From Ignavibacterium sp. (GTDB lineage Bacteria; Zixibacteria; MSB-5A5; GN15; PGXB01), in contig DYGG01000035.1 in NCBI GenBank assembly GCA_020724775.1, positions 1 to 34,592 of the forward strand: a stretch of 34,592 nucleotides of DNA, in the 5' to 3' direction. Of this stretch, positions 3,043 to 34,592 are shown in pieces (within the stretch, counting starts at the first letter, position 1; every line of letters begins with the position of its first letter). A program made the translations under genes and the position numbers. The notes under the pieces are model-generated. The model did not search any database and was not told the origin of the DNA. It saw only the letters and a list, made by a program, of their open reading frames with translations.

Positions 3043-3047
3043 AAGGC

Positions 3048-6029: not shown

Positions 6030-6040
6030 CCGGTGGAGCG

Positions 6041-7441: not shown

Positions 7442-7446
7442 GCATT

Positions 7447-7986: not shown

Positions 7987-7988
7987 GC

Positions 7989-8603: not shown

Positions 8604-9799
8604 GCGGGAGAATGATGAGATACGATGAGGGGACATATCGGATAACCGAACCGGGGAGTTTCGGCACGCGTTCCCTGATTGTCGGCATCGCCGGGCTCGC
8701 TGTCAGCGCTATCGGTTATTTCCTGAATCCGGCGCAGTTTTTCCATTCTTATCTCAACGCTTTTATCTTCTGGTTCAACATCGCCATGGGCTCTCTGTTT
8801 TTTGTCATGCTTCATCACCTGGTGGCGGCGCGATGGAGTGTCACTCTGAGGCGCCTCGCCGAAAATGTCATGATGCAGACCCCGCTCATGTTGCTGTTCT
8901 TTTTGCCGCTCCTTCTTGGGCTGCATGACCTCTTTCACTGGACGCATCATGAGGCCGTTGAAGCCGACCTGATTCTGCAGAAAAAAGCCCCCTATTTGAA
9001 TATTACTTTTTTTGTTGTCCGCGCGGCAGTTTTCTTTGGAGTCTGGAATGCCGTTTCCGTTCTTCTTTTCAAGGCATCTTTGAAGCAGGACTTAAATCCG
9101 GAGGAAGCGATTACCAAAAGAATGAGGGTAATTAGCGCCTTCGGAATAATCGCTTACGCTTTCACTTTCAGTTTCGCCTCCTTTGACTGGCTTATGTCAC
9201 TGGATGCCCACTGGTATTCGACCATCTTTGGAGTCTATATATTTTCGGGAAGCCTCGTGGCGATTATTTCATTTCTTGTAATTGTGCTTTTCTTTATGCG
9301 GCGACAGGGAATACTCCGCAATATGACTACCACCGAGCATTTTCATGACCTGGGGAAGTTGCTCTTTGCCTTCACAGTTTTCTGGGCATATATCGCCTTT
9401 TCGCAGTACTTCCTCATCTGGTACGCCAACATCCCGGAAGAGACAATCTGGTTTCGCAACCGATGGGTCGGTTCCTGGAAAGGAGTAAGCCTTCTTTTGG
9501 TCATGGGACATTTTGTCCTTCCTTTCTTCATACTGATTACCCGCTCGGCAAAGAGGAAGGCCGTTTTTTTAACCGTGATGGCTTTCTGGATGCTTTTTAT
9601 GCGCTGGGTTGACCTGTACTGGGTGATTATGCCGGGTCTGCAAGAGCAGGGATTTAATCTCTCCTGGTTTGATCTCACCGCCTTCATAGGGATTGGCGGA
9701 ATTTTCGTCTGGTCTCTTCTCAAAAGAATCGCCGCCCATCCGCTGATACCGGTCAAAGACCCGCAGTTAAAAGCCTCTGTGGAGTTTATCAGTGAATGA
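8600..9799 (+). CDS. actF: Alternative complex III subunit ActF, second NrfD-like membrane protein
   Basis: This is the second polytopic membrane subunit of alternative complex III, with about ten hydrophobic helices over 399 residues. It shows family features such as FHSYLNAFIFWFNIAMGSLF, the His-rich LHDLFHWTHHEAV, a segment around FASFDWLMSLDAHWYSTIFG, and AFSQYFLIWYANIPEE. The GTG at 8600 gives a GTGA overlap with actE and has GGGG at 8591-8594 upstream; ATG codons at 8612 and 8615 with GGGAG before them are reasonable alternatives that would shorten it by 4-5 residues. Confidence 0.92.
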   Translation: MSGRMMRYDEGTYRITEPGSFGTRSLIVGIAGLAVSAIGYFLNPAQFFHSYLNAFIFWFNIAMGSLFFVMLHHLVAARWSVTLRRLAENVMMQTPLMLLFFLPLLLGLHDLFHWTHHEAVEADLILQKKAPYLNITFFVVRAAVFFGVWNAVSVLLFKASLKQDLNPEEAITKRMRVISAFGIIAYAFTFSFASFDWLMSLDAHWYSTIFGVYIFSGSLVAIISFLVIVLFFMRRQGILRNMTTTEHFHDLGKLLFAFTVFWAYIAFSQYFLIWYANIPEETIWFRNRWVGSWKGVSLLLVMGHFVLPFFILITRSAKRKAVFLTVMAFWMLFMRWVDLYWVIMPGLQEQGFNLSWFDLTAFIGIGGIFVWSLLKRIAAHPLIPVKDPQLKASVEFISE

Positions 9800-9806
9800 G
9801 GGGACC

Positions 9807-10178
9807 ATGACGGAGCCAAGGGAAAATAATCAAATGAGCGAGCCGAACGAGGGATATGAAAAAAGAGACGTAAGCGCGAACAAAGTCATCTTTGTCGGCG
9901 TTATGGGGATATTGCTTTTGGTCGTTATGGTGGTAGCCATGATAGATTATTTCACCGTCTTCACGGAAGAACAGATTTATGAAACCGTACTCAAACCGGA
10001 ATCATCGACGCTCCGAGAACTACGCGCCCGAGAAGCGGAGGCTCTTCATTCCTATAAGTTGCTCGATGCCACCGGTGGAGTCTATCAGATTCCGGTGGAG
10101 CGGGCCATTGATTTGATGGCTGACGCGGCGTTTCAGGAGAGAATCAGTCAGTCCAGCGAAAAGACAGGTTCAAAATGA
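9807..10178 (+). CDS. Small single-span membrane protein of act/cta loci
   Basis: This 123-residue protein has a charged N-terminus, one hydrophobic helix (about residues 27-48) and a soluble C-terminal part containing GGVYQIPVERAIDLMA. Small proteins with a similar 'IP.(E/D)RA...M' phrase accompany alternative complex III and caa3 oxidase genes in other bacteria (recollection, not searched). It is likely a minor subunit or assembly factor. The ATG at 9807 is preferred over the GTG at 9792 because GAGGGG lies just upstream at 9798-9803. Its stop overlaps the start of the SCO gene that follows. Confidence 0.75.
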   Translation: MTEPRENNQMSEPNEGYEKRDVSANKVIFVGVMGILLLVVMVVAMIDYFTVFTEEQIYETVLKPESSTLRELRAREAEALHSYKLLDATGGVYQIPVERAIDLMADAAFQERISQSSEKTGSK

Positions 10179-11056
10179 CGATGATTTCGACTAAAAGATA
10201 TCTTTACCGCCTGTGCGCGCCCTTGGTGCTGGCGGTTCTCTTTATGGTGGCGGTTCCGGCAGCGGCTCAGGTTCTCCATGACTCCCTGCCCGAACTGCGG
10301 AATATTGACGTAGTCGAACATCTTGGCGAACAGATTCCACTGGATACACGGCTGGTCAATGACCGTGGCGACACTGTCACGCTCGCCAAATATTTTGGAC
10401 AGGGAAAGCCGGTAGTCATGGTGATGGGGTACTATAATTGCCCGATGCTTTGCCAGATGGTTCTAAACGGCTTAAGCGATGGACTTCGGACTGTTCCCTG
10501 GGAACCGGGTGGAGACTATCTACTTCTGAATGTCAGCATTAATCCGCGAGAGACATACGAACTTGCCGCCGCCAAGAAGAGAAATTACCTGGAATATTTC
10601 CGCCGGGACAATGCCGCGGACGGGTGGCATTTCTTTGTCGGTCCGGAAGAACAGACACGCTCTCTGGCGGAGGCTCTCGGTTTCAGATACTATTATGATG
10701 AAGCGCGTCAGGAATATGCTCATGCCGCCGTGGCATTTATTCTATCTCCCGATGGTGTCATAAGCCGATACCTTTACGGGCTCACCTTCAAGGCTAACGA
10801 TTTGAAACTGGCAATTCTGGAAGCATCTGAGGGAAAAATCGGGAATACCATCGACCGCATTATACTTTACTGCTATCATTATGACCCGGATGCCAAGGGG
10901 TATGTGGTCTTTGCTTCCAATATAATGAAACTGGGCGGACTGCTCAGCCTGATTCTTCTATTCATATTTCTGGCGATTCTCTGGTTGAAGGACCGGAAGC
11001 GGAGTTTTGCAAAAAAACAGGATGAAATGCAAGGAGCAAAGGCAGGCGGGAGATAA
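10175..11056 (+). CDS. sco1: SCO1/SenC-type copper chaperone with C-terminal membrane anchor
   Basis: This is a thioredoxin-fold SCO family protein, expected to deliver copper to the CuA centre of oxidase subunit II. An N-terminal signal-like helix (about 10-31, ending AAA) precedes the domain. The copper ligands are visible as Cys89 and Cys93 in NCPMLC and His183 in YAHAAVAF. A C-terminal transmembrane helix (about 250-275) followed by a basic tail anchors it. It overlaps the preceding gene by 4 bp and is followed two bases later by ctaC, the gene for its likely client. A second SCO gene occurs at 15714. Confidence 0.92.
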   Translation: MTMISTKRYLYRLCAPLVLAVLFMVAVPAAAQVLHDSLPELRNIDVVEHLGEQIPLDTRLVNDRGDTVTLAKYFGQGKPVVMVMGYYNCPMLCQMVLNGLSDGLRTVPWEPGGDYLLLNVSINPRETYELAAAKKRNYLEYFRRDNAADGWHFFVGPEEQTRSLAEALGFRYYYDEARQEYAHAAVAFILSPDGVISRYLYGLTFKANDLKLAILEASEGKIGNTIDRIILYCYHYDPDAKGYVVFASNIMKLGGLLSLILLFIFLAILWLKDRKRSFAKKQDEMQGAKAGGR

Positions 11057-11058
11057 TT

Positions 11059-12000
11059 ATGGACAGTACCGGGACACTCTTCATGCCGCCGGGACGCTCT
11101 ACTATCGCCGGTGAAGTCGATACTCTCTTTTATTTCATTTTTTACACATCGGTGGTATTCTTTGCCATCGTCGTGTTCGGAATCACCTTTTTCAGTATTC
11201 GTTACCGTCGCCAGCGAAAAGCGGGACTGACCTCGGGACTGGCGCACAACACCAAACTGGAAATTCTCTGGTCGGTGATTCCTACAATTCTGGTAGTGAT
11301 AGTCTTCTTCTGGGGTTTTAAAGTCTTCATTAAAATGCATGTCCCTCCCAAAGATGCCATAGAAATCAAAGTGACGGGACAGAAATGGTTCTGGACTTTT
11401 GTTTATCCCAACGGCTCAAATTCCCTGAATGAACTGGTGGTGCCGGTGGGTAAACCGGTAAAGTTGCTTATGTCATCCCGCGATGTAATTCATAGTTTTT
11501 TTGTGCCTGATTTTCGTATCAAAATGGATGTGCTTCCGAACCGTTACACTGTTACCTGGTTTGAAGCCACTGACCCGGGCATATACAATCTTTTCTGCAC
11601 CGAATATTGCGGAAAGGGTCATTCCGAAATGCTCGGCAAGGTGAAAGTTCTACCGGAGCGGGAATACCAGGCATGGCTGGAATCCGGCTCGGGCGGTGGC
11701 GAAGGGAAAACTCCCGAAGAGTTCGGAGCCGAACTTTACGTGTCCAAAGCCTGCGTGACATGCCACTCCGTTGATGGCACTCTTCTGGTGGGTCCCAGTT
11801 TCAAAGGGATTTTTGGCCATGTTACCCAGTTGGAAGACGGGGAAGCGATGGTCGATGAAAATTATTTGCGGGAATCAATTTTGAATCCGCAGGCAAAAAT
11901 AGTCGCCGGGTTTGAGCCGGTAATGCCGACCTATCAGGGAGTGCTCAATGACCGTCAATTGGACGCCCTGATCGCCTATATAAAATCCTTAAAAGAGTAA
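11059..12000 (+). CDS. ctaC: Cytochrome c oxidase subunit II with fused haem c (caa3 type)
   Basis: This subunit receives electrons at the CuA site and feeds the haem-copper subunit I. Two transmembrane helices (about 25-50 and 72-95) precede a cupredoxin domain with CuA ligands His145 (VIHSFFVP), Cys180, Cys184, His188 and Met191 ([12 protein letters not shown]). A C-terminal cytochrome c domain begins with CVTCH (232-236) and has MPTYQG as a likely Met ligand, which makes the enzyme a caa3 type. The fused haem c is probably the docking point for alternative complex III electrons (inference). It is followed 5 bp later by ctaD. Confidence 0.96.
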
Positions 12001-12005
12001 TTGCC

Positions 12006-13631
12006 ATGTCTGAAAATATAGCGCTTGCAAGAAATTATCTGAATACCCCCCGTGGGCTTAAATCCTGGCTTTTGACCCTCGACCACAAAAGGATTGGAGT
12101 CCTGTATTTGATAGCCATCATGGCATCTTTCTTCCTGGGGGGCGTTTTTGCCCTGTTGATTCGATGGGAACTTCTCAATCCCGGGCGGGACATCATGGGA
12201 CCGGACACCTACAACCAGGTCTTCACTCTTCATGGCGCCATTATGATATTTCTCTTTATCATTCCTTCGATTCCGGCCGCCCTCGGAAATTTTGTTCTGC
12301 CCCAGATGCTGGGGGCGAAAGATGTCGCGTTTCCCCGCCTTAACCTCGCCTCCTGGTATATCTATCTGTTTGGGGCGCTCTTTGCGGTGTACTCCATGTT
12401 CTCCAGTGCTGTCGATACCGGATGGACTTTTTACACACCGTATAGCACCGAAACAACCACCTCGGTTATATCGATGACTATGGGGGCATTCATACTCGGA
12501 TTTTCGTCGATTTTCACCGGACTCAATTTCATAGTTACCATTCATAAATTGCGGGCGCCGGGGATGACCTGGAGACAGTTGCCATTGTTTGTCTGGGCGC
12601 TTTATGCCACCGCTATCATTCAGGTGCTGGCGACACCGGTGCTCGGCATTACCCTGCTGCTATTGGTGCTGGAGCGGGTTTTCGGAATCGGAATTTTCGA
12701 CCCGGCTATGGGCGGTGACCCGGTCCTCTACCAGCATTTCTTCTGGTTCTACTCGCACCCGGCTGTGTATATTATGATTCTTCCCGGTATGGGGATAATC
12801 AGCGAACTGATAGCAGTCTTTGCTCACCGAAAAATTTTCGGATACAATGCCATCGCCTTCTCCAGTCTGGCTATCGCCTTTATCAGTTTTTTGGTCTGGG
12901 GGCATCATATGTTTGTCAGCGGCCAATCGCCTCTTGCCGCCATGATCTTTTCCTTCCTCACTTTCCTGGTCGGCATCCCCAGCGGGATAAAAGTCTTTAA
13001 CTGGCTGGCGACCTTATACAAAGGCTCAATCAGTTTCGCCACGCCGATGCTCTATGCTCTTTCCTTTCTTTTTCTTTTCACCATCGGAGGTTTGACCGGA
13101 ATCTTTCTCGGGGCGCTGGCGACCGATGTCCATCTCCACGACACATACTTTGTGGTCGCTCACTTTCATTATGTGATGATGGGCGGCACGGTGATGGCAT
13201 TTCTGGGGGGTATTCACTACTGGTGGCCCAAAATCTGGGGAAGAATGTACAGTGAGTTCTGGGCTAAAATCGCAGCCGTCCTGGTATTTATCGGATTCAA
13301 CGTAACCTTCTTTACACAGTTTATACTCGGTACGAAAGGGATGCCGCGCCGTTATTACAATTATCTGGACCAGTATCAGCCGCTCCATGCCTTCTCCTCG
13401 ATTGGTTCCTGGATTCTTGGGCTGGGATTTGTCGTCATGCTGGTCTACCTATTGCATTCAATTTATCGCGGCCGACCGGCCGGAAGTAACCCCTGGGGCG
13501 CGCTGACTCTGGAGTGGACCAATAGTTCACCGCCACCCCCGGAGAATTTCGATGAAGCACCGGTGCTGACTCACGGACCATATGACTACGACAAAGTCTT
13601 GGTAGAGGAGGGGAGCCCGGCAAGAGCATGA
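12006..13631 (+). CDS. ctaD: Cytochrome c oxidase subunit I, A2-type haem-copper oxidase
   Basis: This is the catalytic subunit that reduces O2 and pumps protons, with twelve expected transmembrane helices. Haem a ligands are His76 (FTLHGAIM) and His388; CuB ligands are His251, His300 and His301; the a3 ligand is His386 ([12 protein letters not shown]). Helix VI reads YSHPAVY (249-255) instead of GHPEVY: the channel glutamate is absent and a YS pair is present, which defines the A2 type described for Rhodothermus-like caa3 enzymes. Tyr255 is the expected His-Tyr cross-link partner of His251. It overlaps ctaE by 4 bp. Confidence 0.97.
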
Positions 13632-14275
13632 CCCACGGCAAAGAACATCCGGCTTACCTGGCGCACCACTTCAGTGAAGTCGAGCAGCAGCAGGAATCCG
13701 CCAAACTGGGAATGTGGATATTCCTGTTGACCGAGGTGCTTCTCTTCGGCGGACTTTTCTGCTTTTACACCATCTATCGCGCCTGGAATCCCGACATGTT
13801 CTACAACGCTCATAAGTTTCTGAATGTCGAACTGGGAGCGCTTAATACGGTCGTGCTTATATCAAGTTCCGTCACCATGGCGCTGGCGATAAGAAGCATG
13901 CAGTTAAACGACCGGAAGAAAACTATCTGGTTTCTTGTGATTACTCTGGCATGCGCCGCCATCTTTCTGGTAGTAAAGTATTTTGAATACAGCCACAAGT
14001 TTCATCTGGGTCAACTGCCCGGAAAATTTTACACTTTCACCGGAGTTCAGGGGAATAATCCGCATATCTTTTTCAGTGTCTATTTTACCATGACCGGCCT
14101 TCATGGAATCCATGTGCTTGCCGGAATGGTCGCCATCAGTTGGGTGCTGTATCGCACCGTGAAAAACAATTTCTCGGCTCAGTATTACACCCCGATTGAA
14201 ATGACCGGCCTCTACTGGCATCTGGTTGACCTCATCTGGATCTTCCTTTTCCCTCTTCTATACTTAATTGGGTAG
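13628..14275 (+). CDS. ctaE: Cytochrome c oxidase subunit III
   Basis: This 215-residue subunit III has about five hydrophobic helices, as in short bacterial forms that lack the first two helices of the mitochondrial-type protein. Family features include [19 protein letters not shown], a conserved Glu region in FEYSHKFH, and [19 protein letters not shown] followed by [20 protein letters not shown]. It supports the stability of the catalytic subunit. The ATG overlaps the ctaD stop (ATGA), which indicates translational coupling. Confidence 0.95.
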
Positions 14276-14279
14276 AATA

Positions 14280-14705
14280 ATGAGCGAGCATAGTAAATCC
14301 CATATTCATATCCTGCCGTTGAAAACCTATCTCTCGGTTGGAGCGGCGCTTCTGGTGCTGACAGCCGTTACGGTGGGGGTCTCCTTTATTCCGCTGGGCG
14401 GATTTAATGTCGTCGTCGCTCTGTCGATTGCCTCCGTCAAAGCCCTGCTGGTGGCGCTCTTTTTTATGCACCTCCTGTACGATAAGAAAATCTTTATGAT
14501 TATCTTTGCCGTGGCGATTCTCTTCCTGGCGTTGTTCATAACTTTTACCATGTTCGATACCATGCGGCGCGGGGATATTGACGTCATGCAGGCGGCGCCG
14601 ATTGAAAAGGATGCGGTCATCTATAAAGAACGCGGGAGTGATAGTACCGCGGTGCCGTCAGGGATAATTCCTGACTCGGTGACGACGGCGCCTGAGGGAC
14701 ATTAG
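14280..14705 (+). CDS. ctaF: Cytochrome c oxidase subunit IV (small membrane subunit)
   Basis: This 141-residue product has three hydrophobic helices: one near residues 15-37, one containing VVVALSIASVKALLVALFFMHL, and one near 67-88. The pattern, including KALLVALFFMHL, is typical of the prokaryotic subunit IV family. A charged, low-complexity tail of about 50 residues follows the third helix. The start is the ATG at 14280; the frame continues back to a TTG overlapping ctaE. An 80-bp gap separates it from ctaA. Confidence 0.88.
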   Translation: MSEHSKSHIHILPLKTYLSVGAALLVLTAVTVGVSFIPLGGFNVVVALSIASVKALLVALFFMHLLYDKKIFMIIFAVAILFLALFITFTMFDTMRRGDIDVMQAAPIEKDAVIYKERGSDSTAVPSGIIPDSVTTAPEGH

Positions 14706-18253: not shown

Positions 18254-18293
18254 ATATATGAGGATAGCCCATTTAGGGGCCATCCTTATATAT
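18254..18293 (+). terminator. Long hairpin terminator between the secreted protein and the kinase gene
   Basis: The core stem AGGATAGCCC (18261-18270) pairs with GGGCCATCCT (18277-18286) with one mismatch around loop ATTTAG. The flanking ATATATG and TATATAT extend it to about 17 pairs with one G-U. It is followed by TTTATG. It lies 23 bp after the stop of the secreted-protein gene and ends 3 bp before the likely kinase ATG. An in-frame ATG at 18258 precedes the hairpin core, which argues that this ATG is not the true kinase start. Confidence 0.75.
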
Positions 18294-18296
18294 TTT

Positions 18297-19988
18297 ATGA
18301 TACAGCAAGAAGTTAAGACCGATTCCCCGCCAGACCTGAAAGATTATGAGATTCTGGAGAAAATCGGGCAAGGGGGAATCGCCGAAATATATAAAGCGCG
18401 CCAGAAGTCGCTGGGCCGACTGGTAGCCATTAAAGTCCTTTTTCCCCACTATATCGCCGACCCCGATATCGTCCGCCGTTTCGAACGGGAGTCGGTCACG
18501 ATCGCCGCCTTGAATCACTCCAACATCGTTCATATTATTGATAAAGGGATGGCTGACGGGCGATATTATTTCGTGATGGAGTTTGTTGACGGCCGCTCTT
18601 TCAAAGAAATCATCCACTCCAGCGAGTTCACTCTCCGGGACAAACTCGAGATCATCATAATGATTCTCAAAGGGCTCGATTATGCTCATAAGAATGGCGT
18701 GATTCACCGCGATATCAAGCCGGCCAATATTCTTATTGACCGAACCGGAAATGCCCTCCTGGCTGATTTCGGTATTGCTCTAATATCCAATAAAGAAGAG
18801 CATGAAAATACGAACTCCGACATTGTTATGGGGACTCTGGCATATATGTCGCCGGAGCAGCGGGAATCCTCTGCCAACGTCGACCTGACCACCGATATCT
18901 TTTCCATCGGGATTATTATATATGAAATTCTGACCGGTCGCAGGCCGATGGGGCGATTTCGGATGCCGTCCGAAGTTGATTCCAACATTTCAAAGCGATA
19001 TGATGATATTGTTTCCCGCTGCCTTGCCGAGGACCCGCGCGACCGGTTTCAGACAGCGGTGGAGTTGAAGGATGAACTTCTGAATCTGATATCGGGCCGC
19101 GCTCGCAACGCCCCCTTCCCGAAAGCGGAATTCGCCGGCCTTGATTCTTTCATCGGCAAATGTCAGTTCCTCGACACCATCCGCGAAACCAAATACGCAT
19201 CGACCCTTTTGGTGGAGAACTGCGAAAGCCAGGAACTGGTTGTTATCAAGAAGAATGAAAAGTCTAACGCCGGTCTCAAGGAGGCGAAACTCTTAAGCCA
19301 TCTCAAACACAAAAATATAATCAACATTTACGGAGCCGGCGGTGACAGCCGCAAACTGGTCGTGGTAATGGAATACGCTCCGGGAGGCTCGCTTGCCGAC
19401 CGGATGATTAAGCCGTATCCGTACGAAAAAGCGATGACAATTGCAGCCGAGGTCGCCGAAGGACTCGACTTTGCCCACAAAAACAACATTATTCACGGCG
19501 ATTTGCGTCCCTCCAATATACTTTTCACGCGGGACGAGAAAATCAAGTTGACCGATTTCGGGATGCCACCACACTACAACATGATGGAGAAGAACTGGTA
19601 TGCTTCGCCGGAGCGCCGGTTAAGTAAGCAGGCAGATATTTACGCTCTCGGCGTCATACTGCATCAACTGATGTTCGGCAAGAATCCGATTCATGACCGG
19701 GCGGGACGTCTCTTTCTGGGGGCGCTTCAAAAAAGCATCCCGAGCAAAATCTACGATATCCTCTCCAAAATGCTGGCTATCCGCACAACTCTGCGGTATC
19801 GCGGGATGGAGGAATTCCTTTATGATTGGGAGGAATTTCGCCACAGCCTCACCCAACAGGAGAAACCGCTTGCCAGAGAGGTTTCGAAAAAGAGCATCAC
19901 CGGCAAATGGCGACTGCCCAAATATACCTACCCGGTAGCAGGCGGTATCATTGTCCTTGGAGCCCTTCTTTATATCCTCTTGAAATAA
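18297..19988 (+). CDS. Tail-anchored Ser/Thr protein kinase with second, degenerate kinase domain
   Basis: This 563-residue protein has two Hanks-type kinase domains in tandem. The first (about 15-260) is complete: glycine loop IGQGGIAEIY, VAIK lysine 46, HRDIKPAN with catalytic Asp139, ADFG, and the APE-like MSPEQRE. The second (about 275-520) lacks a glycine-rich loop, has VIKK, HGDLRPSN with Arg in place of the usual Lys, TDFG and ASPERR, so it may be a pseudokinase or a weakly active domain. A single hydrophobic helix ends the protein (YPVAGGIIVLGALLYILLK), giving a tail anchor with both domains in the cytosol and no extracellular sensor. The ATG at 18297 is chosen because the upstream ATG at 18258 precedes a terminator hairpin; no Shine-Dalgarno is visible for either. 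Confidence 0.88.
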   Translation: MIQQEVKTDSPPDLKDYEILEKIGQGGIAEIYKARQKSLGRLVAIKVLFPHYIADPDIVRRFERESVTIAALNHSNIVHIIDKGMADGRYYFVMEFVDGRSFKEIIHSSEFTLRDKLEIIIMILKGLDYAHKNGVIHRDIKPANILIDRTGNALLADFGIALISNKEEHENTNSDIVMGTLAYMSPEQRESSANVDLTTDIFSIGIIIYEILTGRRPMGRFRMPSEVDSNISKRYDDIVSRCLAEDPRDRFQTAVELKDELLNLISGRARNAPFPKAEFAGLDSFIGKCQFLDTIRETKYASTLLVENCESQELVVIKKNEKSNAGLKEAKLLSHLKHKNIINIYGAGGDSRKLVVVMEYAPGGSLADRMIKPYPYEKAMTIAAEVAEGLDFAHKNNIIHGDLRPSNILFTRDEKIKLTDFGMPPHYNMMEKNWYASPERRLSKQADIYALGVILHQLMFGKNPIHDRAGRLFLGALQKSIPSKIYDILSKMLAIRTTLRYRGMEEFLYDWEEFRHSLTQQEKPLAREVSKKSITGKWRLPKYTYPVAGGIIVLGALLYILLK

Positions 19989-23301: not shown

Positions 23302-23709
23302 TCATTCTCTGCTGTCGCCGATTATTTTGGATGTGTCCGACTGCTGGCGGGTGACTTCAATTTCAATATGGCTGATGGTCCCTGGAATCGGAGGGATAAT
23401 TTTGCGCACCCGTACCGAGACTTTGAAAACTGGAAACTCTTTCAGGATTTCGTTAGCCAGGCTTACCGCCAGCGACTCCACCAGCGAGAACGCTTTCCCT
23501 TCGACAATCTCGCGCACCTTCTGATAAACGGCGGCATAATCGACCGTGTCAGTCAGGGAATCGGTTTGTCCCGGCGATGCCAGGTCGGCTTCGAGTTCAC
23601 AGTCAACTTCGAATCGTCGGCCGGTTTCCTTCTCAGCCGCGGTAACGCCATGGTATCCGTAGAAGACCATATTGTTGAGTCTGATAACGTCCATAGAGAT
23701 ATCCCTCAT
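23302..23709 (-). CDS. folB: Dihydroneopterin aldolase
   Basis: FolB cleaves dihydroneopterin to hydroxymethyl-dihydropterin and glycolaldehyde. The 135-residue product carries VFYGYHGVTAAEKETGRRF at the N-terminus, TDTVDYAAVYQKVREIV, and the LVESLA motif with the conserved Glu; a catalytic Lys follows in the VRVRKIIPPIPG stretch. The ATG overlaps the stop of the aminotransferase-like gene by 4 bp (ATGA). An extra 18-residue hydrophilic tail follows the core. Confidence 0.94.
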   Translation of the reverse strand: MRDISMDVIRLNNMVFYGYHGVTAAEKETGRRFEVDCELEADLASPGQTDSLTDTVDYAAVYQKVREIVEGKAFSLVESLAVSLANEILKEFPVFKVSVRVRKIIPPIPGTISHIEIEVTRQQSDTSKIIGDSRE

Positions 23710-24863
23710 TCTTTCTGCAGGAAACGGCGGCCCAGTTGTTCCTCAGCGCTGCGGTATTCCTCGGCTGACGCGGTCAAAGAAAGCCGCAGGTAGCCATCAG
23801 CGGCATCGCCGAAAGCGGTGCCGGGGAGAGTCAGAATCCCGCGACGGCGTAGAAGTGCGGTCGCGAAAGCGGCCGATGCTTTTCGCCCGGGGATTTTAGT
23901 CCAGAGGAAGGGAGCCGAATCATGCCCCAGCGGTTTCCAGTCGTATTTCTCGACCATCTGCTTCGCTGCCTGCCGCGATTGCTCAATCCGCTTGCGGACG
24001 TTTTTCAATTCCGCCGACGGATACTGCTCAATCGCTTTCAGGGCGGCGGAGATCCATCCTATCGGCATAAACTGCCCCATCAACCGGCCCGCTGATTCCA
24101 GTGTGCCGATAGTTTCGGCCGGGCCAACGGCAAAACCAAGCGGTATATGCGGAAGTCCGAAAGTCAGCGGCACGGAGAAAATTTCCAGCGATACCCGGTC
24201 CCCGCCCGGGAGCGAGAAAAGCGGCAGGAACTTTTCTTCGGCCAAGGAGCAGTAGGCGGCATCATTGACCAGCAAGATATTATCGCGGGAGGCGTAACGA
24301 ATCAACTCACCGAGGTCGGATTCATCAAGGACCGAGCCGAGCGGATTGTGGGGAGAGTTGAGCATCAAAACTTTGGCGGTCTTACCGACATTGACGGAGA
24401 ATTTTTTGAGCGACGGTTTGTGATTGGTTTTTTCCGAGATTTGATAACTTAGCGGCATGCCGCCGGCAATTATTATATCACGACGGTAAGCGGGAAGACC
24501 CGGCTCGGGACAGAGCACCAGGTCGCCATACTCGATAAAGGCGAGGGAGAAGTCAAGCAGGATTCGCCGAATGCCATGGCCTATGAAGATCTGCTTGCGA
24601 GGGTTGATTCGAAGAGAAAATTCTTCCTGTAGCCAGGATGCTAAGGCTTCTTTCAAAGTCAGCAGTTCTTTAGCGCCGGCGATTTCTGACGAACCCGGAC
24701 CATCACCCTGCCATTTTTCGACCGGCCAGCGAAAATGCCCCAGGTCGATCTGCGGGAATCGCCGCGCCGCCGACTGCAATGTCTGACGCGGAAAGTACTC
24801 ATCCAGGTCGAAAGGGAGATGATAAAGGCGATCGGCTTTGTCGAGGATGACCTTTTTAATCAT
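23706..24863 (-). CDS. Aminotransferase class I/II-fold protein lacking the PLP lysine
   Basis: The 385-residue protein has the fold type I aminotransferase layout: NSPHNPLG at 169-176, VNDAAY with Asp201 and Tyr204, LGFAVG at 242-247, and a late GYLRLSLTAS with the carboxylate-binding Arg position. The segment that should read S-x-S-K-x-F-G-x-x-G-x-R is SVPLTFGLPHIP (230-241), so Leu233 replaces the Schiff-base lysine and Pro241 replaces the following Arg. I checked this by translating the reverse complement of the bases near 24130-24170. It is probably not a normal PLP-dependent aminotransferase and may be a pseudoenzyme or use another chemistry. It overlaps its neighbours on both sides by 4 bp. 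Confidence 0.85.
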   Translation of the reverse strand: MIKKVILDKADRLYHLPFDLDEYFPRQTLQSAARRFPQIDLGHFRWPVEKWQGDGPGSSEIAGAKELLTLKEALASWLQEEFSLRINPRKQIFIGHGIRRILLDFSLAFIEYGDLVLCPEPGLPAYRRDIIIAGGMPLSYQISEKTNHKPSLKKFSVNVGKTAKVLMLNSPHNPLGSVLDESDLGELIRYASRDNILLVNDAAYCSLAEEKFLPLFSLPGGDRVSLEIFSVPLTFGLPHIPLGFAVGPAETIGTLESAGRLMGQFMPIGWISAALKAIEQYPSAELKNVRKRIEQSRQAAKQMVEKYDWKPLGHDSAPFLWTKIPGRKASAAFATALLRRRGILTLPGTAFGDAADGYLRLSLTASAEEYRSAEEQLGRRFLQKE

Positions 24864-25507
24864 TTGGTTTGTGTCCCGAGAGTTTCTCTCAGTTTCTCCA
24901 GACGGCGCACTTCATCCAGGTCGAGAAAATTGAGTTTGCCGCTCTGCTCGGCAATATAGATGATTTTAGCGTAATGTTCAACCGTTTCCATCCGGTAGAA
25001 AGCCTCAAAGAGATTCCGCCCCAGCGTAAGGACGCCATGATTGGTCAGAATGAAACCGTCATGCTCTTTCAGAAACCTTTCCAAAGCGCGCGGGACAGCG
25101 GCGGTTCCGGGCGGAGCATACTCAACCAGCGGAATCTGTCCCAGGGTAAGGATAACCTCAGGAAGGATATTGGGTGGCAGAATTTTCTCCACTACGGAGA
25201 AGGCGGTAGCATAAGGGGGATGGGCATGGCAACAGGCATGAATATTATCGCGACCGTTATAGACAGCCAGATGCATTTTCATCTCCGAGGAGGGTTTGCG
25301 GTCCCCGCTTACTGTCTTACCGGCGTAATCCACGACAACAAGGTCTTCGGGCTCAAGAAATCCCTTGGAAACGCCGGTAGCGGTGATAAGGATTTCACGG
25401 GAGTTGGGACGAATCGAAAGATTGCCGTCAACGCCGGCAATAAATCCTTTGGCGTAGAGACGTCGCCCTATCTCAATAACCTGCTCTATCTCTTTAGAAT
25501 ATGGCAT
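24860..25507 (-). CDS. Class II aldolase/adducin family protein
   Basis: This 215-residue protein belongs to the zinc-dependent class II aldolase family (L-fuculose-phosphate aldolase, ribulose-phosphate epimerase and MtnB relatives). Features are the GVDGNLSIRP phosphate-site loop, SSEMKMHLAVY with the catalytic Glu position, CHAHPPYA with two zinc histidines, and TNHGVLTLG with a third. The substrate cannot be told. It is the first gene of a six-gene operon with folB, folK and panB, so a role in pterin or C2/C3 phosphate chemistry is possible. No Shine-Dalgarno precedes the ATG, and the promoter lies so close that the leader is only about six bases. Confidence 0.9.
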   Translation of the reverse strand: MPYSKEIEQVIEIGRRLYAKGFIAGVDGNLSIRPNSREILITATGVSKGFLEPEDLVVVDYAGKTVSGDRKPSSEMKMHLAVYNGRDNIHACCHAHPPYATAFSVVEKILPPNILPEVILTLGQIPLVEYAPPGTAAVPRALERFLKEHDGFILTNHGVLTLGRNLFEAFYRMETVEHYAKIIYIAEQSGKLNFLDLDEVRRLEKLRETLGTQTK

Positions 25508-25519
25508 AAGAAAAACAAT

Positions 25520-25548
25520 AATCTATGCTTAATCAGAATCAATGTCAA
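25520..25548 (-). promoter_or_regulatory. Promoter of the aldolase-folBK-panB operon
   Basis: On the minus strand TTGACA (25548-25543) is followed after 17 bp by TAGATT (25525-25520). The expected start of transcription is near 25513, only about 6 nt before the aldolase ATG, so the mRNA would be nearly leaderless. Confidence 0.6.
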
Positions 25549-25709
25549 TCAGATACCGAACACCGCGTCGCCGGCAGGGGGTGATTTTACAGAATCTGTT
25601 GCAATTCAGGGAGTTGCCTCTCTTAAGAGGAAGAAATGAAAAAGAAACTTACTTCATTTATTTAAGTATAATGAACTATAGGATATGTCGGGGAGAGTAA
25701 ATATATCTA

Positions 25710-25738
25710 TTGACAAAATCTGTTATGGTTCGTATAAT
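25710..25738 (+). promoter_or_regulatory. Perfect consensus sigma70 promoter of htrA
   Basis: TTGACA at 25710-25715 and TATAAT at 25733-25738 are separated by exactly 17 bp, a full consensus match. Transcription should start near 25745, leaving a leader of about 23 nt with GGAGG at 25756-25760 before the TTG start codon of htrA. The strength suggests high constitutive expression, perhaps offset by the weak start codon. Confidence 0.85.
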
Positions 25739-25767
25739 TATTGGCTAAATTGTTTGGAGGATGAAAA

Positions 25768-27261
25768 TTGAAAGGGAGGTCGTTTTTCCCTATTGGGGCA
25801 GGTGGGCGATATTTTTCAGTGGGGCTGGTTGCTCTCGGCTTCACTGTCCTGGGTTTTATTTTGGCGTCTAATCTTGACTTCACCCAGAAATCAGTAGCGA
25901 CCATTCCGCAGGGGGAATATCCGACCGTCAGAAACTCGAGCGGAGAGAATGTTTCTCCTTTCGTGGCGGTGGTCGAGCAGAAAAGCAACGCTGTGGTAAA
26001 TATCTCCGTGGAGCAGGAGGCGCAACCGCGACACTATGACGATTTCTTCTGGCGCTTTTTTCAGGTGCCCAATGAGCCGTCCGTCTCCTTTGGTTCCGGA
26101 TTTTTCTTCAGGCCCGACGGTTATATCCTGACCAACAATCATGTGGTGCGCAATGCCAAGCGGGTGGCAGTCAGAACGGCAACGGGGTATCAGTATGACG
26201 CTCAGGTGGTCGGGGCCGACCAGGAAACAGACCTGGCGGTGCTGAAGGTAGAACCAGAGGAAAACATTATTTACATTCCGTTCGGCAACTCCGATGAAAT
26301 CAAAGTCGGCGATTGGTCGATCGCCATCGGTAACCCATTCCCGCAGCAGGGACTGGACCGAACGGTAACTGTTGGAGTGATTTCGGCTAAAGGTCGCAGT
26401 AATCTGAGATTTGGCAGCGAATCGCCACGGTACCAAGATTATATTCAGACCGATGCCTCCATCAATCCCGGAAACTCCGGAGGTCCTCTTTTGAACCTCA
26501 AAGGGGAAGCGATTGGGGTCAACGCCGCCATTTCCAGCCCGTCAGGCGGTTCGGTTGGAATCGGTTTTGCGATTCCGATTAATATCGCTCGGGCGATAGT
26601 ACCGGACCTGATTGCCAGCGGAAAGGTCTCGCGCGGGTGGCTTGGCATCTGGCTTTCGGCAGTAACACAAGCGCAAGCCAAGAGATATGGAATGGATGCC
26701 GTCCGGGGCGTACATGTCGACTCTGTCTTCCGCGATTCCCCCGCCGACCACGCCGGTATCAGACGGAACGATATTCTCATTAAGTTTAACGACCATGATG
26801 TCAATGACCCGGGGCAATTATCGGTCTTAATCGCCACTGCCCCGCGCAATCAGGATGCCCAGATAGCGTTACTAAGAGGGGGAAAGAAGATCACAGTTAC
26901 TGCCCGGATAGTTGACCGGGAGCAGTACCAACTGGCAAACGCCCGGCAGTTTACGCCGAGCGGCGAAAGATTATCTTGGTTGGGGATGGAACTTCTGGAT
27001 TTTACGGAACAGATTGCCGCGGAAAAAGGTTTTGGGGATTATTTCCCGGGCGTTTATATCGACCGGGTGGCTCGCGGCTCACAGGCTGACAGGGCTGGTA
27101 TCCAGCCCGGCTCCATTATCACACAGGTGGACCGGAACGATATCGGTAACCTGCGGGAGTTGCGAACCATTGCGGAGCGGCTGCGGGGAAGCCGCACCGC
27201 CGTTCCTATTCTTCTGGTTGACCCCAGAGGTACGATTGAATATAAGGCCATCAGGCCATGA
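25768..27261 (+). CDS. htrA: HtrA/DegP-type periplasmic serine protease with two PDZ domains
   Basis: This 497-residue Do-type protease handles misfolded envelope proteins. A basic start and a hydrophobic helix (about 15-34) give a membrane anchor or signal. The trypsin-like domain has the triad His125 (TNNHVV), Asp155 (QETDLAVL) and Ser237 (PGNSGGPL). PDZ1 spans about 280-370 (RGWLGIWL ... GVHVDSVFRDSPADHAGI) and PDZ2 about 395-495 (WLGMELLD ... GVYIDRVARGSQADRAGI). The TTG start is set by GGAGG with 7-nt spacing and an in-frame TGA two codons upstream; the nearby ATG at 25761 is in another frame and abuts the GGAGG. Confidence 0.95.
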   Translation: MKGRSFFPIGAGGRYFSVGLVALGFTVLGFILASNLDFTQKSVATIPQGEYPTVRNSSGENVSPFVAVVEQKSNAVVNISVEQEAQPRHYDDFFWRFFQVPNEPSVSFGSGFFFRPDGYILTNNHVVRNAKRVAVRTATGYQYDAQVVGADQETDLAVLKVEPEENIIYIPFGNSDEIKVGDWSIAIGNPFPQQGLDRTVTVGVISAKGRSNLRFGSESPRYQDYIQTDASINPGNSGGPLLNLKGEAIGVNAAISSPSGGSVGIGFAIPINIARAIVPDLIASGKVSRGWLGIWLSAVTQAQAKRYGMDAVRGVHVDSVFRDSPADHAGIRRNDILIKFNDHDVNDPGQLSVLIATAPRNQDAQIALLRGGKKITVTARIVDREQYQLANARQFTPSGERLSWLGMELLDFTEQIAAEKGFGDYFPGVYIDRVARGSQADRAGIQPGSIITQVDRNDIGNLRELRTIAERLRGSRTAVPILLVDPRGTIEYKAIRP

Positions 27262-27341
27262 AAACCGGGTGCGACTCCTGTCTCTCAATAGGGAATAGGA
27301 AAGCCCGTATTACCGTATAGGAAAAGGAGTTAAAATTCATC

Positions 27342-28196
27342 GTGGCTAAACAGTCGTTAAAGTACCGCGACGAAGACAGGTCGCTTGACCTGTATCTCCG
27401 AGAAATTGGGGAGACTCCCCTTATCCCGCCGGAAGAAGAAGTGCGATTGGCAAAGAAAATAAGGCAGGGCGACAAAAATGCCCTGGAATCATTAACCAAA
27501 GCCAATCTGCGATTTGTTGTTTCGGTGGCAAAGCAGTATCAGAATCAGGGTCTTTCGCTGGCCGACCTAATAAACGAGGGGAATATAGGTCTTATAAAGG
27601 CGGCGAAACGGTTTGATGAGACCCGCGGATTCAAGTTTATTAGTTACGCCGTCTGGTGGATTCGTCAGGCTATCCTGCAGGCACTGGCTGAGCAGAGCCG
27701 TATTGTGCGGCTTCCGTTAAACCGCGTCGGAACGTTGCATAAGATCGGCAAGGTCTCCAGTTCGCTGGAACAGGATCTGGGGCGGGAACCGTCGCCCGAT
27801 GAAATCGCCCGCGAATTGGACCTCTCCGAAATGGAGGTCTCCGACACCCTCAAGATTTCCAACTCGCATCTTTCGCTGGATGCTCCCTTTTCGGTAAGTG
27901 AAGACAATTCACTGATTGATATCCTTGAGGATGAATTTCAGCCGGCGCCGGATGAGGAACTTTTGAGTCAGTCTTTGAAACTTGAGATTGAAAAGGCCCT
28001 GGATACGCTGACGCCTCGTGAGGCGGAAGTAATCAGCCTCTATTTTGGTCTCAATCATGAGAAGGCTCTAACTCTGGAGGAAATCGGGGCGCGCTTTTCG
28101 CTCACTCGGGAGCGGGTGCGTCAAATTAAGGAGAAGGCGATTCGCCGCCTCCGTCACGCCTCCCGCAGCCGCTCACTGCGAGCGTATCTGAATTAA
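27342..28196 (+). CDS. rpoD: Primary-type RNA polymerase sigma factor (sigma70, no region 1.1)
   Basis: This 284-residue sigma factor holds regions 1.2 ([20 protein letters not shown]), 2 ([42 protein letters not shown]), 3 ([16 protein letters not shown]) and 4 ([44 protein letters not shown]). Region 1.1 is absent, as in the short housekeeping sigma factors of Bacteroidetes-like bacteria. It is close enough to RpoD to be the housekeeping factor, but an RpoS-like alternative factor cannot be excluded. The GTG start has AAAGGAG upstream with a longish 12-nt gap. It lies 80 bp after htrA and may be co-transcribed with it. Confidence 0.93.
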
Positions 28197-30407: not shown

Positions 30408-30869
30408 ATGCAGAACTTTTTCGTCGCAATGGTTTACCGGGTAAGTTTGGCGTTCTTAATGATGACCGTTGTTGGTATCTCCCAGTCATCTGATTCCTCC
30501 CGTACCGTGGAATCCGAAGAGGAATTCGTTATCGAGACACGGCATCGTCTTTTCCCGAATTTTGGTCAGGTAGATACCGTTGCCATTGGTGAGATTTTTC
30601 TGGTGGGGGAAGAAGAACTGAAAGCGGAGGTTTTGAAATTTAATCCTCACCTGGGGATAACAGACAGCGGCAAATATCTCCAGATGACTGATACCTTATA
30701 TAATCCGGCGGTTTTGGTTCGTTTGACTATGGAGGACGGGCGAGTTCAGGAGAGTTGGGGCTTTTACGTGATAGATGCCCCGCACTACCGACGGGACAAT
30801 CTCTTTGGCTTCAAATTGGTTGATTTCAAAGTGGGCGAAAAGTATATCAGGCCGCCTGAAGGTATGTAA
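30408..30869 (+). CDS. Secreted protein with ResB-like periplasmic region
   Basis: This 153-residue protein has an N-terminal hydrophobic segment (about 5-25) that acts as a signal peptide or anchor. The rest recalls the periplasmic domain found in ResB-type cytochrome c biogenesis proteins: TRHRLFPNFGQVDTVAI, then TLYNPAVLVRLTMEDGRVQESWGFYV and an F-K-L ending (recollection of the family pattern, low certainty). It carries no CXXCH. It is followed 11 bp later by the 42-haem cytochrome gene, so a role in its maturation, export or holding is a fair inference. ATG 30432 is an alternative start. Confidence 0.75.
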   Translation: MQNFFVAMVYRVSLAFLMMTVVGISQSSDSSRTVESEEEFVIETRHRLFPNFGQVDTVAIGEIFLVGEEELKAEVLKFNPHLGITDSGKYLQMTDTLYNPAVLVRLTMEDGRVQESWGFYVIDAPHYRRDNLFGFKLVDFKVGEKYIRPPEGM

Positions 30870-30880
30870 AGGCTCCGGGC

Positions 30881-33800
30881 ATGGCAAGTCACAAGCGGTT
30901 GAAAATTATGGTGGGGGCAGGGGCGGCAGTAATTCTTCTGCTCATAATGGTGGGGGATATTCAGGCGGCAAAGAGTTGCTACGATTGTCATCAGGAAGCC
31001 AAAAAAGCCTACAGTTCCCGCAAAATAATACATCAGCCGGTCAAAGTGCAGGATTGCGAGTCGTGTCATAAACGGCACGGTTTTTCGCAACAGTTGATTC
31101 TCAAAGATAATACATCGGAACTCTGTTACGGTTGTCACACTGACCTGAAAGAGCCGTTTGCATCCGGACAGAAGCACTTTCCGGTGGACAAGGGGGTCTG
31201 TTGGGATTGTCATGACCCTCACGCCTCCGACAAGCGTCATCTTCTTCGCACCGGAAAAGAGGGAGCCGATGACCCTCTGTCCTGCCTTATCTGTCATCAG
31301 ACCGACCTTCAAGGATCGCTGACGGCGGAGCATACACATCCGCCATTTGCCGACCTTGATTGCGGCCGATGTCATGCCGCACACAGCAGCGCTCATGACG
31401 GACTTCTCTTGAAAGCGGCAAATGAACTATGCGGGGAGTGCCATAAAGGAAGCGACCGCGCTCTTCAAGCGGCGCATAAAGATAAAAATACCGAGTCGCT
31501 CCAATGTTCCGACTGCCACTCCGGTCACTCGTCAGCCAACGCTTCCCTTCTTTCCGAGAATACCCATGCCCCTTTTGCCTCCGGCGATTGCACCATCTGT
31601 CATTCGCTGCCCGGCACGGCGGGGAAGGTCACTTTTGAAGCCGGTGTTACACCGGGAGCAATCTGTGCTAATTGTCATGATGAGCAAGCGCGCGGCGCCG
31701 AAAAACCGTTCCCCCATGCTGCCGTTGGCCCAGACAATTGTGTCGAATGTCACGACCCTCACTCGTCGCGGCACGGACAACTTCTCAAAAAAGCGGAGAT
31801 TGAACTTTGCGCCGACTGCCATAGTGATATAGTCGGCGGCGAGGGAAAGGCGCCGCATCTTCCGGCGCTGGCGGGAGAGTGCAGCAAGTGCCACGAAGTG
31901 CATGGCTCCGAAAGTAAAGCGCTGGTCAGGAAGGTTGGCTCGGCGCTCTGTTTGGAATGTCATACCGGTTTTGCCGCGCGCAAGGATTCCGCCTCCGCCG
32001 TCCATGCTGCTCTCGATGAATGCCTTACCTGTCATGACCCCCACGAAGGGGAAGTCGCCCCGGTTCTAAAGAAAAAACCGGGCGACCTCTGTGTCGATTG
32101 TCATGGCGCCGACCAGACCGCTCTGATGGCTCGCTCCGGGCATCAGCCATACCTGACTTCAAACTGCGTTGAATGCCATCAGCCGCATTTCAGCAACAAG
32201 GCGCATCTGGTCCGCGAAGGAGAACAGACTCTCTGCCTCAAGTGTCATGCCGACATCGGAACGCGAACCAGTATGGAATTCCCTCATCCCCCGGCCACGG
32301 AGGATTGCCTGAACTGTCACCAACCCCATTATTCGGAGCAGTTGCACCTTCTTACTGCCCATGAAGAAGAACTTTGCGCCAATTGTCACAACTTCGACGA
32401 ACTTCAAATCAATCAGAATTTCGTTCATACCCCGGCGCAGGAAGGGGACTGCACCGGATGCCACAATCCACACGGCGCCACACGGGCAAATCTGCTAACC
32501 GGACGAATCAGGAAAGTCAATATCGAGGGCCGGATGGTGGGACGCGTACCGCATCTGACCGATAAATCTTCCGACCTCTGTTATACCTGTCATGAGGACC
32601 TCTCCGAGAAATTTCGTCGACAGGGAGTGCATAAGCCGGTGGAGGAGGGAAAATGCGATGCCTGTCATGCCCCGCATGGTTCCTCCCATTTTGCTTTTGT
32701 AAAAGATTCCTCCGCGGCGCTTTGCGGCAGTTGCCATACTTTGAATGATTCGCTTACGGCAGCGCACAACAACTATGACTTATCTTCCGCCGACTGCCTC
32801 GATTGCCACAATCCCCATATCTCGGAGAAGCCGAAACTGCAGCGGGCAAGCAATCACCCTCCTTATGAAACGAAAGACTGCGAGGGATGCCATACGCAGT
32901 CATCCGACGGCAAAATACAACTGGCGGGGGAACTGGGCGAACTTTGCCAGGTCTGCCATGACGCTGTAACTTCCGATATGGAGAAGAAACATCAGCATGC
33001 CGCCTTCGTCGGCGGTGATTGTCTCACCTGCCACGCGGCTCATGCTTCCGACCGGCAAAAACTCCTGCGTGCTGATGAGAACCAACTTTGCTTCAGTTGC
33101 CACGGCGACCTTAAGAATTTACGCCGATTATCATCACAGCACGAGCCGTTTCACGCAGGGAAATGCCTCGATTGCCACGAGCCGCATGCCTCCGATAACA
33201 CCGGGTTAATAAATAAGTCAAAAGAGACCTTCTGCCTTAGTTGCCATGACGATTTGAAGAAGGAACTGGATGGGGGACCGGCGCATAAACCGCTCCTGAC
33301 CGGAGAATGCGGCGCCTGCCATTTGCCTCATGCCGGAAAAAACGAGGCTCTTCTGGTCAGCAATAAACAGGAACTCTGCGGTAAGTGCCACGATCTGAAA
33401 TCGACGAAAATATCTCTGGCGCATAGCGGCTTTGATGTTTCTCAGTCCGATTGCCAGAGTTGTCATGCGCCCCACGCCGGAAAGAAAAACGTTCCGGGAC
33501 TACTGTTACCCCAGGCGCATCAGCCGTTCAGCGCCAAAGAGTGCGGTTCCTGCCATCAGGGGACAACGGCAACCCCGCTGATTGCGTCGCCCAAAGCGCT
33601 CTGCCTTGATTGCCATAAAGATTTCGCGCCTCAGATGGCTCGCGCCGTCGTGCACGAACCGGTGAAAAGCGATGACGGTTGCACCGGTTGTCATTCCCCG
33701 CATGTCGGTTTCGGAAAAAGTCTTCAGATAAAAGACGGTTACAAGACCTGTTTGACCTGCCATAACAGCGCGGAATTTACCGGAAAGGTGAGACATCAGA

Positions 33801-34081
33801 TCGCCTTTGAGGATTGCGGGAATTGCCATCAGCCGCACAGCGCCGATTACAAGGGGCTGCTTGATACCGAAGATATTATGGGTCTTTGTATGACCTGTCA
33901 TCCTGACGCCAGGAAAACACATTACCATCCGATGGGCGAAGGGATTACCGACCCGCGCACTAAGGACATGCTGGATTGTATCAGTTGTCATTCGCCGCAC
34001 TCCAGCGAATACACTTCGATACTGATTGCCGATAAAGACCGGAAACTCTGTATTGTCTGTCATGGTGTTTCGTTACACTGA
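30881..34081 (+). CDS. Giant multihaem cytochrome c with 42 CXXCH motifs
   Basis: The 1066-residue protein has a signal peptide (basic start, hydrophobic residues about 11-25, cleavage near IQAA) followed by 42 CXXCH motifs, from CYDCH at residue 33 to CIVCH six residues before the end. Every cysteine I see lies in a CXXCH. The motifs form about 21 doublets of the paired-CXXCH type: one member is followed by x-P-H (CWDCHDPH, CVECHQPH, CDACHAPH and others), and the other follows an EL/AL phrase (ELCYGCH, ALCLECH). The CHxPH and HxPF histidines are likely second axial ligands, so bis-His haems are expected. At about one haem per 25 residues it could carry electrons over a long distance. No membrane anchor follows the signal. 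AAAGG precedes the ATG by 8 nt. Confidence 0.95.
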   Translation: MASHKRLKIMVGAGAAVILLLIMVGDIQAAKSCYDCHQEAKKAYSSRKIIHQPVKVQDCESCHKRHGFSQQLILKDNTSELCYGCHTDLKEPFASGQKHFPVDKGVCWDCHDPHASDKRHLLRTGKEGADDPLSCLICHQTDLQGSLTAEHTHPPFADLDCGRCHAAHSSAHDGLLLKAANELCGECHKGSDRALQAAHKDKNTESLQCSDCHSGHSSANASLLSENTHAPFASGDCTICHSLPGTAGKVTFEAGVTPGAICANCHDEQARGAEKPFPHAAVGPDNCVECHDPHSSRHGQLLKKAEIELCADCHSDIVGGEGKAPHLPALAGECSKCHEVHGSESKALVRKVGSALCLECHTGFAARKDSASAVHAALDECLTCHDPHEGEVAPVLKKKPGDLCVDCHGADQTALMARSGHQPYLTSNCVECHQPHFSNKAHLVREGEQTLCLKCHADIGTRTSMEFPHPPATEDCLNCHQPHYSEQLHLLTAHEEELCANCHNFDELQINQNFVHTPAQEGDCTGCHNPHGATRANLLTGRIRKVNIEGRMVGRVPHLTDKSSDLCYTCHEDLSEKFRRQGVHKPVEEGKCDACHAPHGSSHFAFVKDSSAALCGSCHTLNDSLTAAHNNYDLSSADCLDCHNPHISEKPKLQRASNHPPYETKDCEGCHTQSSDGKIQLAGELGELCQVCHDAVTSDMEKKHQHAAFVGGDCLTCHAAHASDRQKLLRADENQLCFSCHGDLKNLRRLSSQHEPFHAGKCLDCHEPHASDNTGLINKSKETFCLSCHDDLKKELDGGPAHKPLLTGECGACHLPHAGKNEALLVSNKQELCGKCHDLKSTKISLAHSGFDVSQSDCQSCHAPHAGKKNVPGLLLPQAHQPFSAKECGSCHQGTTATPLIASPKALCLDCHKDFAPQMARAVVHEPVKSDDGCTGCHSPHVGFGKSLQIKDGYKTCLTCHNSAEFTGKVRHQIAFEDCGNCHQPHSADYKGLLDTEDIMGLCMTCHPDARKTHYHPMGEGITDPRTKDMLDCISCHSPHSSEYTSILIADKDRKLCIVCHGVSLH

Positions 34082-34592
34082 TGAGAATAACATTAGATTC
34101 TGAATTTACTGGCGTTTGCTTTCGGGTAGCCATGATACTCTGTCTCCTGGGTGTGGCGGCGCCGGCATATTCTCAGTTGCAACTGACTGAGTGGAAAAGC
34201 GCCCCCGCCCGTTACAGCGGCATGAGACCGGCCCAACTAGCTCTCTCTCCTGCCGGAGACAGGATTGCGCTGGCTGATAACGTGACCGGCAGAATCCTGG
34301 TCATTGATTATCGTGGCGAGGTGCTCTGGGGGACGGGAGAAAGTGTCAGGATAGAGCCGCCGCTGACAGTCGCTTTTGATACTGAAAACGAAATATTGTT
34401 CACTTCCGCCAATTCATCGCTGGTGTTCAGGTGCCGGGACAACGAGCCGCAGAAAATCGACACAGTGGCAGATCTGAAGGCGGTTTTTGAGCGCAAAGTC
34501 GCTGTGAAACAGATAGTGAAAAGACCGGGCGGGGATTATATTATTCTTGATGAAAAATCCGGTTCGATTCTTCAGGCGGACAGCGCCTGGGA
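34081..34592 (+). CDS. Secreted beta-propeller-like protein, partial (runs off the window)
   Basis: The ATG overlaps the stop of the cytochrome gene (ATGA), and the frame stays open for 170 codons to the window edge. A hydrophobic segment (AMILCLLGVAAPAYS, about 17-32) is a signal peptide. The visible part has repeated four-strand phrases such as MRPAQLALSPAGDRIALADNVTGRILVIDYRGEV and PLTVAFDTENEILFTSANSSLVF, typical of NHL or six-bladed beta-propeller proteins. Tight coupling to the cytochrome gene suggests the two act together outside the cytoplasm. Confidence 0.8.
   Translation, partial: MRITLDSEFTGVCFRVAMILCLLGVAAPAYSQLQLTEWKSAPARYSGMRPAQLALSPAGDRIALADNVTGRILVIDYRGEVLWGTGESVRIEPPLTVAFDTENEILFTSANSSLVFRCRDNEPQKIDTVADLKAVFERKVAVKQIVKRPGGDYIILDEKSGSILQADSAW

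Follow-up and report, generated by a model that had tools for sequence, protein, structure and literature searches.

A 42-haem cytochrome c of Zixibacteria is a fused counterpart of the OscI/OscJ pair and a candidate haem wire of the cell envelope

In Zixibacteria, a single open reading frame encodes a 42-haem cytochrome c that corresponds one-to-one to a pair of separate genes for 26-haem and 16-haem cytochromes, the OscI/OscJ pair of the osc (OmcS companion) system. The gene lies in a window of 34,592 nucleotides (the whole stretch of DNA analysed here), which is an entire contig, C71, of a 3.07-Mb genome. It is complete in 16 of the 132 genomes of the phylum, and some others carry adjacent 26-haem and 16-haem genes. 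What is new is the OscI-OscJ fusion, as a variant of the osc system; the 26- and 16-haem pair is known, as are larger cytochromes. We consider it probable that the fused OscI (26 haems) and OscJ (16 haems) work as one continuous MtrA-type haem wire. The parts of the gene are:

30881 to 34081, + strand: 42-haem cytochrome c gene (OscI-OscJ fusion), 1066 aa; its TGA stop overlaps the ATG of the next gene
30881 to 30970, + strand: Sec-type signal peptide, residues about 1–30, without a lipobox cysteine, read from the sequence; it precedes haem 1
30971 to 32893, + strand: OscI-like part, haems 1–26; spacing fingerprint and segment register match stand-alone 26-haem proteins
32894 to 32944, + strand: fusion junction, haem 26/haem 27; an ordinary 22-residue step replaces a C-terminal tail and a signal peptide
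32945 to 34078, + strand: OscJ-like part, haems 27–42, assigned by spacing and segment register against split relatives

The original prediction of 42 CXXCH motifs and no other cysteine in 1066 residues is borne out by the reading frame at 30881–34081 (+), in which all 84 cysteines fall within such motifs. When the residues of the protein were shuffled 1000 times, the mean number of motifs was 0.6 and the maximum 5. The motifs had also been described as about 21 regularly spaced doublets; the spacing is indeed mainly an alternation of about 23 and 25 residues, interrupted by longer gaps at a small number of constant positions (e.g., 43 residues after haem 21), but the doublet count is approximate and the pairing register shifts near haems 8–11, 25–28, and 34–37. 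Profile searches placed the protein in the expected paired-CXXCH family, with 606 bits over 20 stretches for Paired_CXXCH_1 (PF09699, cut-off 20.6) and 570 bits for TIGR01905 (cut-off 25.2). Across the 16 orthologues, which come from several Zixibacteria families, all 84 cysteines and the 42 CXXCH histidines are invariant. Outside the motifs, 40 histidines are likewise invariant and H199 and H375 occur in 75% of the sequences, which amounts to about one distal ligand per haem. The conservation of the cysteines, the proximal histidines and about 42 distal histidines argues for a real bis-His cytochrome. An assembly or frameshift artefact was rejected, the 42-haem gene being intact in 16 genomes, and an apparent split in one further assembly (G120) turned out to be a scaffold gap of N. 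Close full-length relatives are from an FCB group bacterium, candidate division GN15 and, in partial form, Candidatus Zixiibacteriota.

The division into 26 and 16 haems is visible in the fused protein itself. Rare long spacings at positions 8, 25, 34, and 40 coincide between the fused and the split forms. Segment similarity between the two forms peaks at zero shift (13.8), falls to about 4.4 when one is displaced by two haems, and is –2.9 when the order is swapped to 16 + 26, such that haems 1–26 and 27–42 are colinear and in register with the stand-alone paired-CXXCH cytochromes. The step from haem 26 to haem 27 is 20–23 residues in all 16 fused proteins, at a point where the split genomes have two reading frames; with a step of this ordinary length, no remnant of a tail or signal peptide is left at the joint. 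Since the 16 genomes have a single reading frame in place of two separate polypeptides, we class the protein as a fused variant and not as OscI or OscJ itself. Among the cases read, homologues have 42 haems or 26 plus 16 wherever the genes are complete. One shorter frame, of 21 haems (L130:228–1802 in genome G098), matches haems 1–21 only and stops near a contig end; it is a truncated gene or a sequence error.

In a tree of the sequences, the fused and split groups fall on opposite sides of a single branch (support 100/100), and the fused clade has a single origin. A second phylum, entered through a locus with a Nitrospirae title (L052), gave 27 matches among 296 genomes. Its full-length matches are open frames of about 650–720 aa, i.e., the 26-haem protein alone, and seven of the eight loci read in detail have 26 plus 16 haems in the same register. 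In the tree, these split genes join their split counterparts of Zixibacteria and stand apart from the fused clade. Fusion is likely the derived state, given a tree without a certain root and a split form that is the more widespread. The fused profile had no match in two phyla (395 and 296 genomes), a result of little weight, as just two candidates per genome were scored and there was no positive control; nor did the literature yield a relevant paper on a 42-haem cytochrome. In a genome of the same family (G007, L037:352–12357), a split 26 + 16 operon lies near aminotransferase, aldolase, htrA, and sigma-factor genes that are also found beside the fused operon of the window (23706–28196), in opposite orientation; this is possibly an in-place replacement or a shared insertion site.

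The mature peptide has a mass of 112.4 kDa, or 2.7 kDa per haem, and is “peptide-minimised” in the sense of PMC7096707. Such a very high haem density would suit an electron capacitor, in which the 42 haems would serve mainly as a periplasmic charge store for times of scarce acceptors, without a defined end-to-end route, and storage has been suggested for large periplasmic cytochromes (PMC10734462). Storage would, however, tolerate gain and loss of repeats, whereas a number of exactly 42 haems and a haem-by-haem spacing are kept strictly across families and in the split form, and we regard a capacitor as unlikely. The constant total of 42 haems, fused or split, suggests that the length of a wire is under selection.

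The genes on either side are in close contact with the 42-haem gene, one starting from the shared TGATG and the other lying 11 bases upstream, and the arrangement is operon-like:

30408 to 30869, + strand: 153-aa secreted companion, fold without a match; it opens the fused-type operon and is conserved directly before the 42-haem gene in the 10 genomes examined
34081 to 34592, + strand: NHL-type beta-propeller gene, N-terminal part, truncated where the contig stops; the C-terminal part is at the end of contig C37

The 153-aa protein has no Pfam or NCBIfam match and was not seen in the split operons that were read. Orthologues of the propeller have an NHL match, and tblastn with one of them (from G001) recovered residues 1–181 at the end of the window and 208–317 at the end of C37; the contig break thus falls inside the propeller gene and the operon of this genome continues on C37. 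Fused operons have the order 153-aa protein, 42-haem cytochrome, propeller, OmcS-like hexahaem cytochrome, six- or twelve-haem cytochrome, shorter barrel-like protein, two lipoproteins, propeller, and another hexahaem cytochrome. Split operons have the order hexahaem cytochrome, propeller, barrel-like protein, LpoB-like lipoprotein, LpoB/FlgO-like protein, PpiC/SurA-type PPIase, 26-haem cytochrome, and 16-haem cytochrome. Profile comparisons link the two sets through the barrel (E 4e-10), the first lipoprotein to an OscF-like protein (2e-35), the second to an OscG-like protein (5e-32), and the hexahaem to an OscC-like protein (2e-28), and the propellers of the fused operon are weakly related to the OscD-like propeller. 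The fused operon thereby has an OmcS-like hexahaem cytochrome, a barrel-like protein, and OscF/OscG-like lipoproteins. The hexahaem profile matches OmcS in the PDB (E 6.7e-11, three collinear stretches), as expected of an OmcS relative. The barrel-like proteins have no match to a known porin family and none to Pfam MtrB_PioB. No PPIase, and hence no counterpart of OscH as a dedicated PpiC/SurA-type PPIase, was found in the fused operons read; the sole relative in the genome is a distant one on contig C47.

An operon core of propeller, 16-haem, 26-haem, and PPIase genes is known (PMC5539420), and the osc genes have been described as an eight-gene block (PMC12977616), with OscC as the hexahaem cytochrome, OscD in morphology, OscE–G in secretion, OscH in folding, OscI as GSU2495, and OscJ as GSU2494 (PMC13194489). 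We matched the letters D to G to individual genes by order and size. Split counterparts in register and an osc gene order identify the gene of the window as OscI joined to OscJ, in a variant of the osc operon without the PPIase; given the absence of this enzyme and the weakly related propellers, the function of the fused system may have changed. Physiological roles are disputed or unassigned for OscI and OscJ and even for OmcS (PMC5539420, PMC13194489), and the neighbouring osc genes have been tied to how OmcS filaments fold, are secreted, and take shape (PMC13194489, PMC12977616). OscI/OscJ and their fusion might accordingly help the OmcS-like protein to fold, dock, or be secreted instead of mainly carrying electrons, but 42 invariant bis-His haem sites would be superfluous in a protein that acts in assembly alone, and in the reports read the assembly roles sit with OscH, OscE–G, and OscD, which makes this quite an improbable role.

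We return to the haem wire and its likely fold. The 42-haem profile matches MtrA (6r2q_A, E 1.8e-18; the molecule name in the profile result is wrong, and the chain was identified through the fold-search title “Structure of the Mtr complex”). A segment of six haems could be modelled from the internal repeats of the protein (alignment A10, taken because an alignment of overlapping repeats, A8, was unusable and a six-haem alignment, A9, had slipped in register):

32975 to 33427, + strand: haems 28–33, modelled segment (pLDDT 75) matching MtrA by model and fold search

Foldseek aligns this model with MtrA at E 5e-4 and TM 0.64, and VIA gives Z 8.2 over 144 residues, the next chain scoring 3.3, in a comparison of 10 chains that leaves room for other folds. 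An MtrA-like haem-wire fold is in this way assigned to the six-haem segment. AlphaFold modelling of the whole protein from three sequences reached a pLDDT of 29.5 and was not used, so that continuity of the chain is argued by analogy from six haems. The decahaem model TIGR03508 also scores on the protein through many repeated matches; a stand-alone MtrA/DmsE decahaem relative was rejected, with 42 haems against a ten-haem domain and no MtrB/PioB-family porin next door in the operon, and is kept as a fold analogy.

Haems in MtrA are 3.9–6.5 Å apart, edge to edge, and ten of them cover 80 Å (PMC7198977), and a published trend gives about 27 haems per 200 Å (PMC7096707). By simple arithmetic, 42 haems would span about 310 Å by the trend and about 365 Å by the MtrA pitch, i.e., about 310–370 Å, which exceeds the periplasm; the same arithmetic, which is not evidence of placement, gives 26 haems roughly the width of the periplasm and leaves 16, enough to cross the outer membrane. 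With such a length, part of the protein could protrude (PMC7096707), and the signal peptide foreseen in the original prediction is present. The protein might then be exported past the outer membrane as a surface or extracellular wire, as had been proposed; we find this improbable, as it has no lipobox, anchor, or surface domain and GSU2495 and GSU2494 are listed as periplasmic (PMC13194489). Nothing indicates that the protein itself is extracellular, a place better suited to the OmcS-like hexahaem cytochrome.

The fold, the length, and the neighbouring OmcS relative speak for a wire that links carriers in the periplasm with a surface cytochrome or filament of the OmcS type, and the 42-haem protein is most likely such a wire, periplasmic and possibly trans-envelope. 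The idea of an extended, repeat-built wire stands as far as an exported, MtrA-like haem chain is concerned, probably tied to extracellular electron transfer; we infer its function, continuity over the full chain, its location and haem geometry, its electron partners, and the link to a filament. Electrons would enter the chain from inner-membrane quinol oxidoreductases or small periplasmic cytochromes, hop along the 42 bis-His haems, and pass to the operon's OmcS-like hexahaem cytochrome, either at the outer membrane or through it; this cytochrome may in turn build an extracellular filament, and the direction of flow could also be reversed. One intriguing but tentative possibility is a single-molecule conductor: the fusion would start at the inner membrane and cross first the periplasm, with about 26 haems over about 190–200 Å, and then the outer membrane, with about 16 haems over about 120 Å, its length of 42 haems being set by the envelope, and split OscI and OscJ would dock head to tail into the same wire, the missing link that charges OmcS-type filaments. 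A fused 26 + 16 haem protein in Zixibacteria suggests that the separate Geobacter-like pair also joins end to end: from two parts fused in frame, with a step of ordinary length between their haems, one would expect OscI and OscJ to meet at their ends in one 42-haem chain. The main value of the fusion is this prediction that the two act as a single chain, which is testable in Geobacter.

We find no support for the earlier view of the protein as unusual in kind; it unites in one chain the pair OscI/GSU2495 and OscJ/GSU2494, known from the osc/OmcS-nanowire operon. It shares its haem total with OscI/OscJ of the Geobacter osc system and the SEEP-SRB1 26 + 16-haem operon, and is likewise exported without a membrane anchor; in the split relatives read, the spacing fingerprint and gene order are the same. 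The link to Geobacter is drawn from haem counts, gene order, and the published descriptions. It differs in being one polypeptide, in an operon without the PPIase but with the 153-aa protein, extra six- or twelve-haem cytochromes, and a shorter barrel-like protein. MtrA of Shewanella (6r2q chain A) is similar in paired-CXXCH repeats, bis-His pattern, and the fold of the six-haem segment, but has 10 haems and sits in the MtrB porin, which has no recognised relative in the fused operon. PCC3 of iron-oxidising Gallionellaceae, likened here by description, is also large, linear, and proposed to span the periplasm, with fewer haems (21–27) and in another operon (porin, extracellular cytochrome, inner-membrane protein). 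The relative of the hexahaem nanowire cytochrome OmcS (6ef8, 6nef) is the hexahaem neighbour and not the 42-haem protein; its filament formation is a prediction, and OmcS-like proteins include paralogues not known to make filaments (PMC12977616). Giant cytochromes such as those of the ANME S-layer also have very high haem numbers, with other domains and cell envelopes; at up to 86 haems (PMC7096707, PMC9012536), they make 42 no record, and the idea of a largest known cytochrome was rejected.

The genome holds several other electron-transfer loci. The lineage had been expected to be equipped for oxygen respiration, and the window contains an alternative complex III-type cluster (2395–14705; ActD by Pfam, NrfD-type, and QrcA/QrcC-like subunits) followed by subunits of an aa3-type oxidase, in support of aerobic respiration. 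A separate decahaem MtrA-like cytochrome with an MtrB/PioB-type porin (contig C24, L005:9011–11711) points to a second route across the outer membrane. On contig C72 (L006:8224–12595), a decahaem cytochrome, a 515-aa protein without a Pfam match, and 5- and 4-haem cytochromes stand in a row and may form another conduit. An apparent cytochrome b/Rieske-type cluster with 6-, 9-, and 8-haem cytochromes (contig C64, L161:7108–13038) is a possible donor on the quinol side. Elsewhere in the window (18258–19988), one gene encodes two tandem kinase-like domains and a C-terminal membrane segment.
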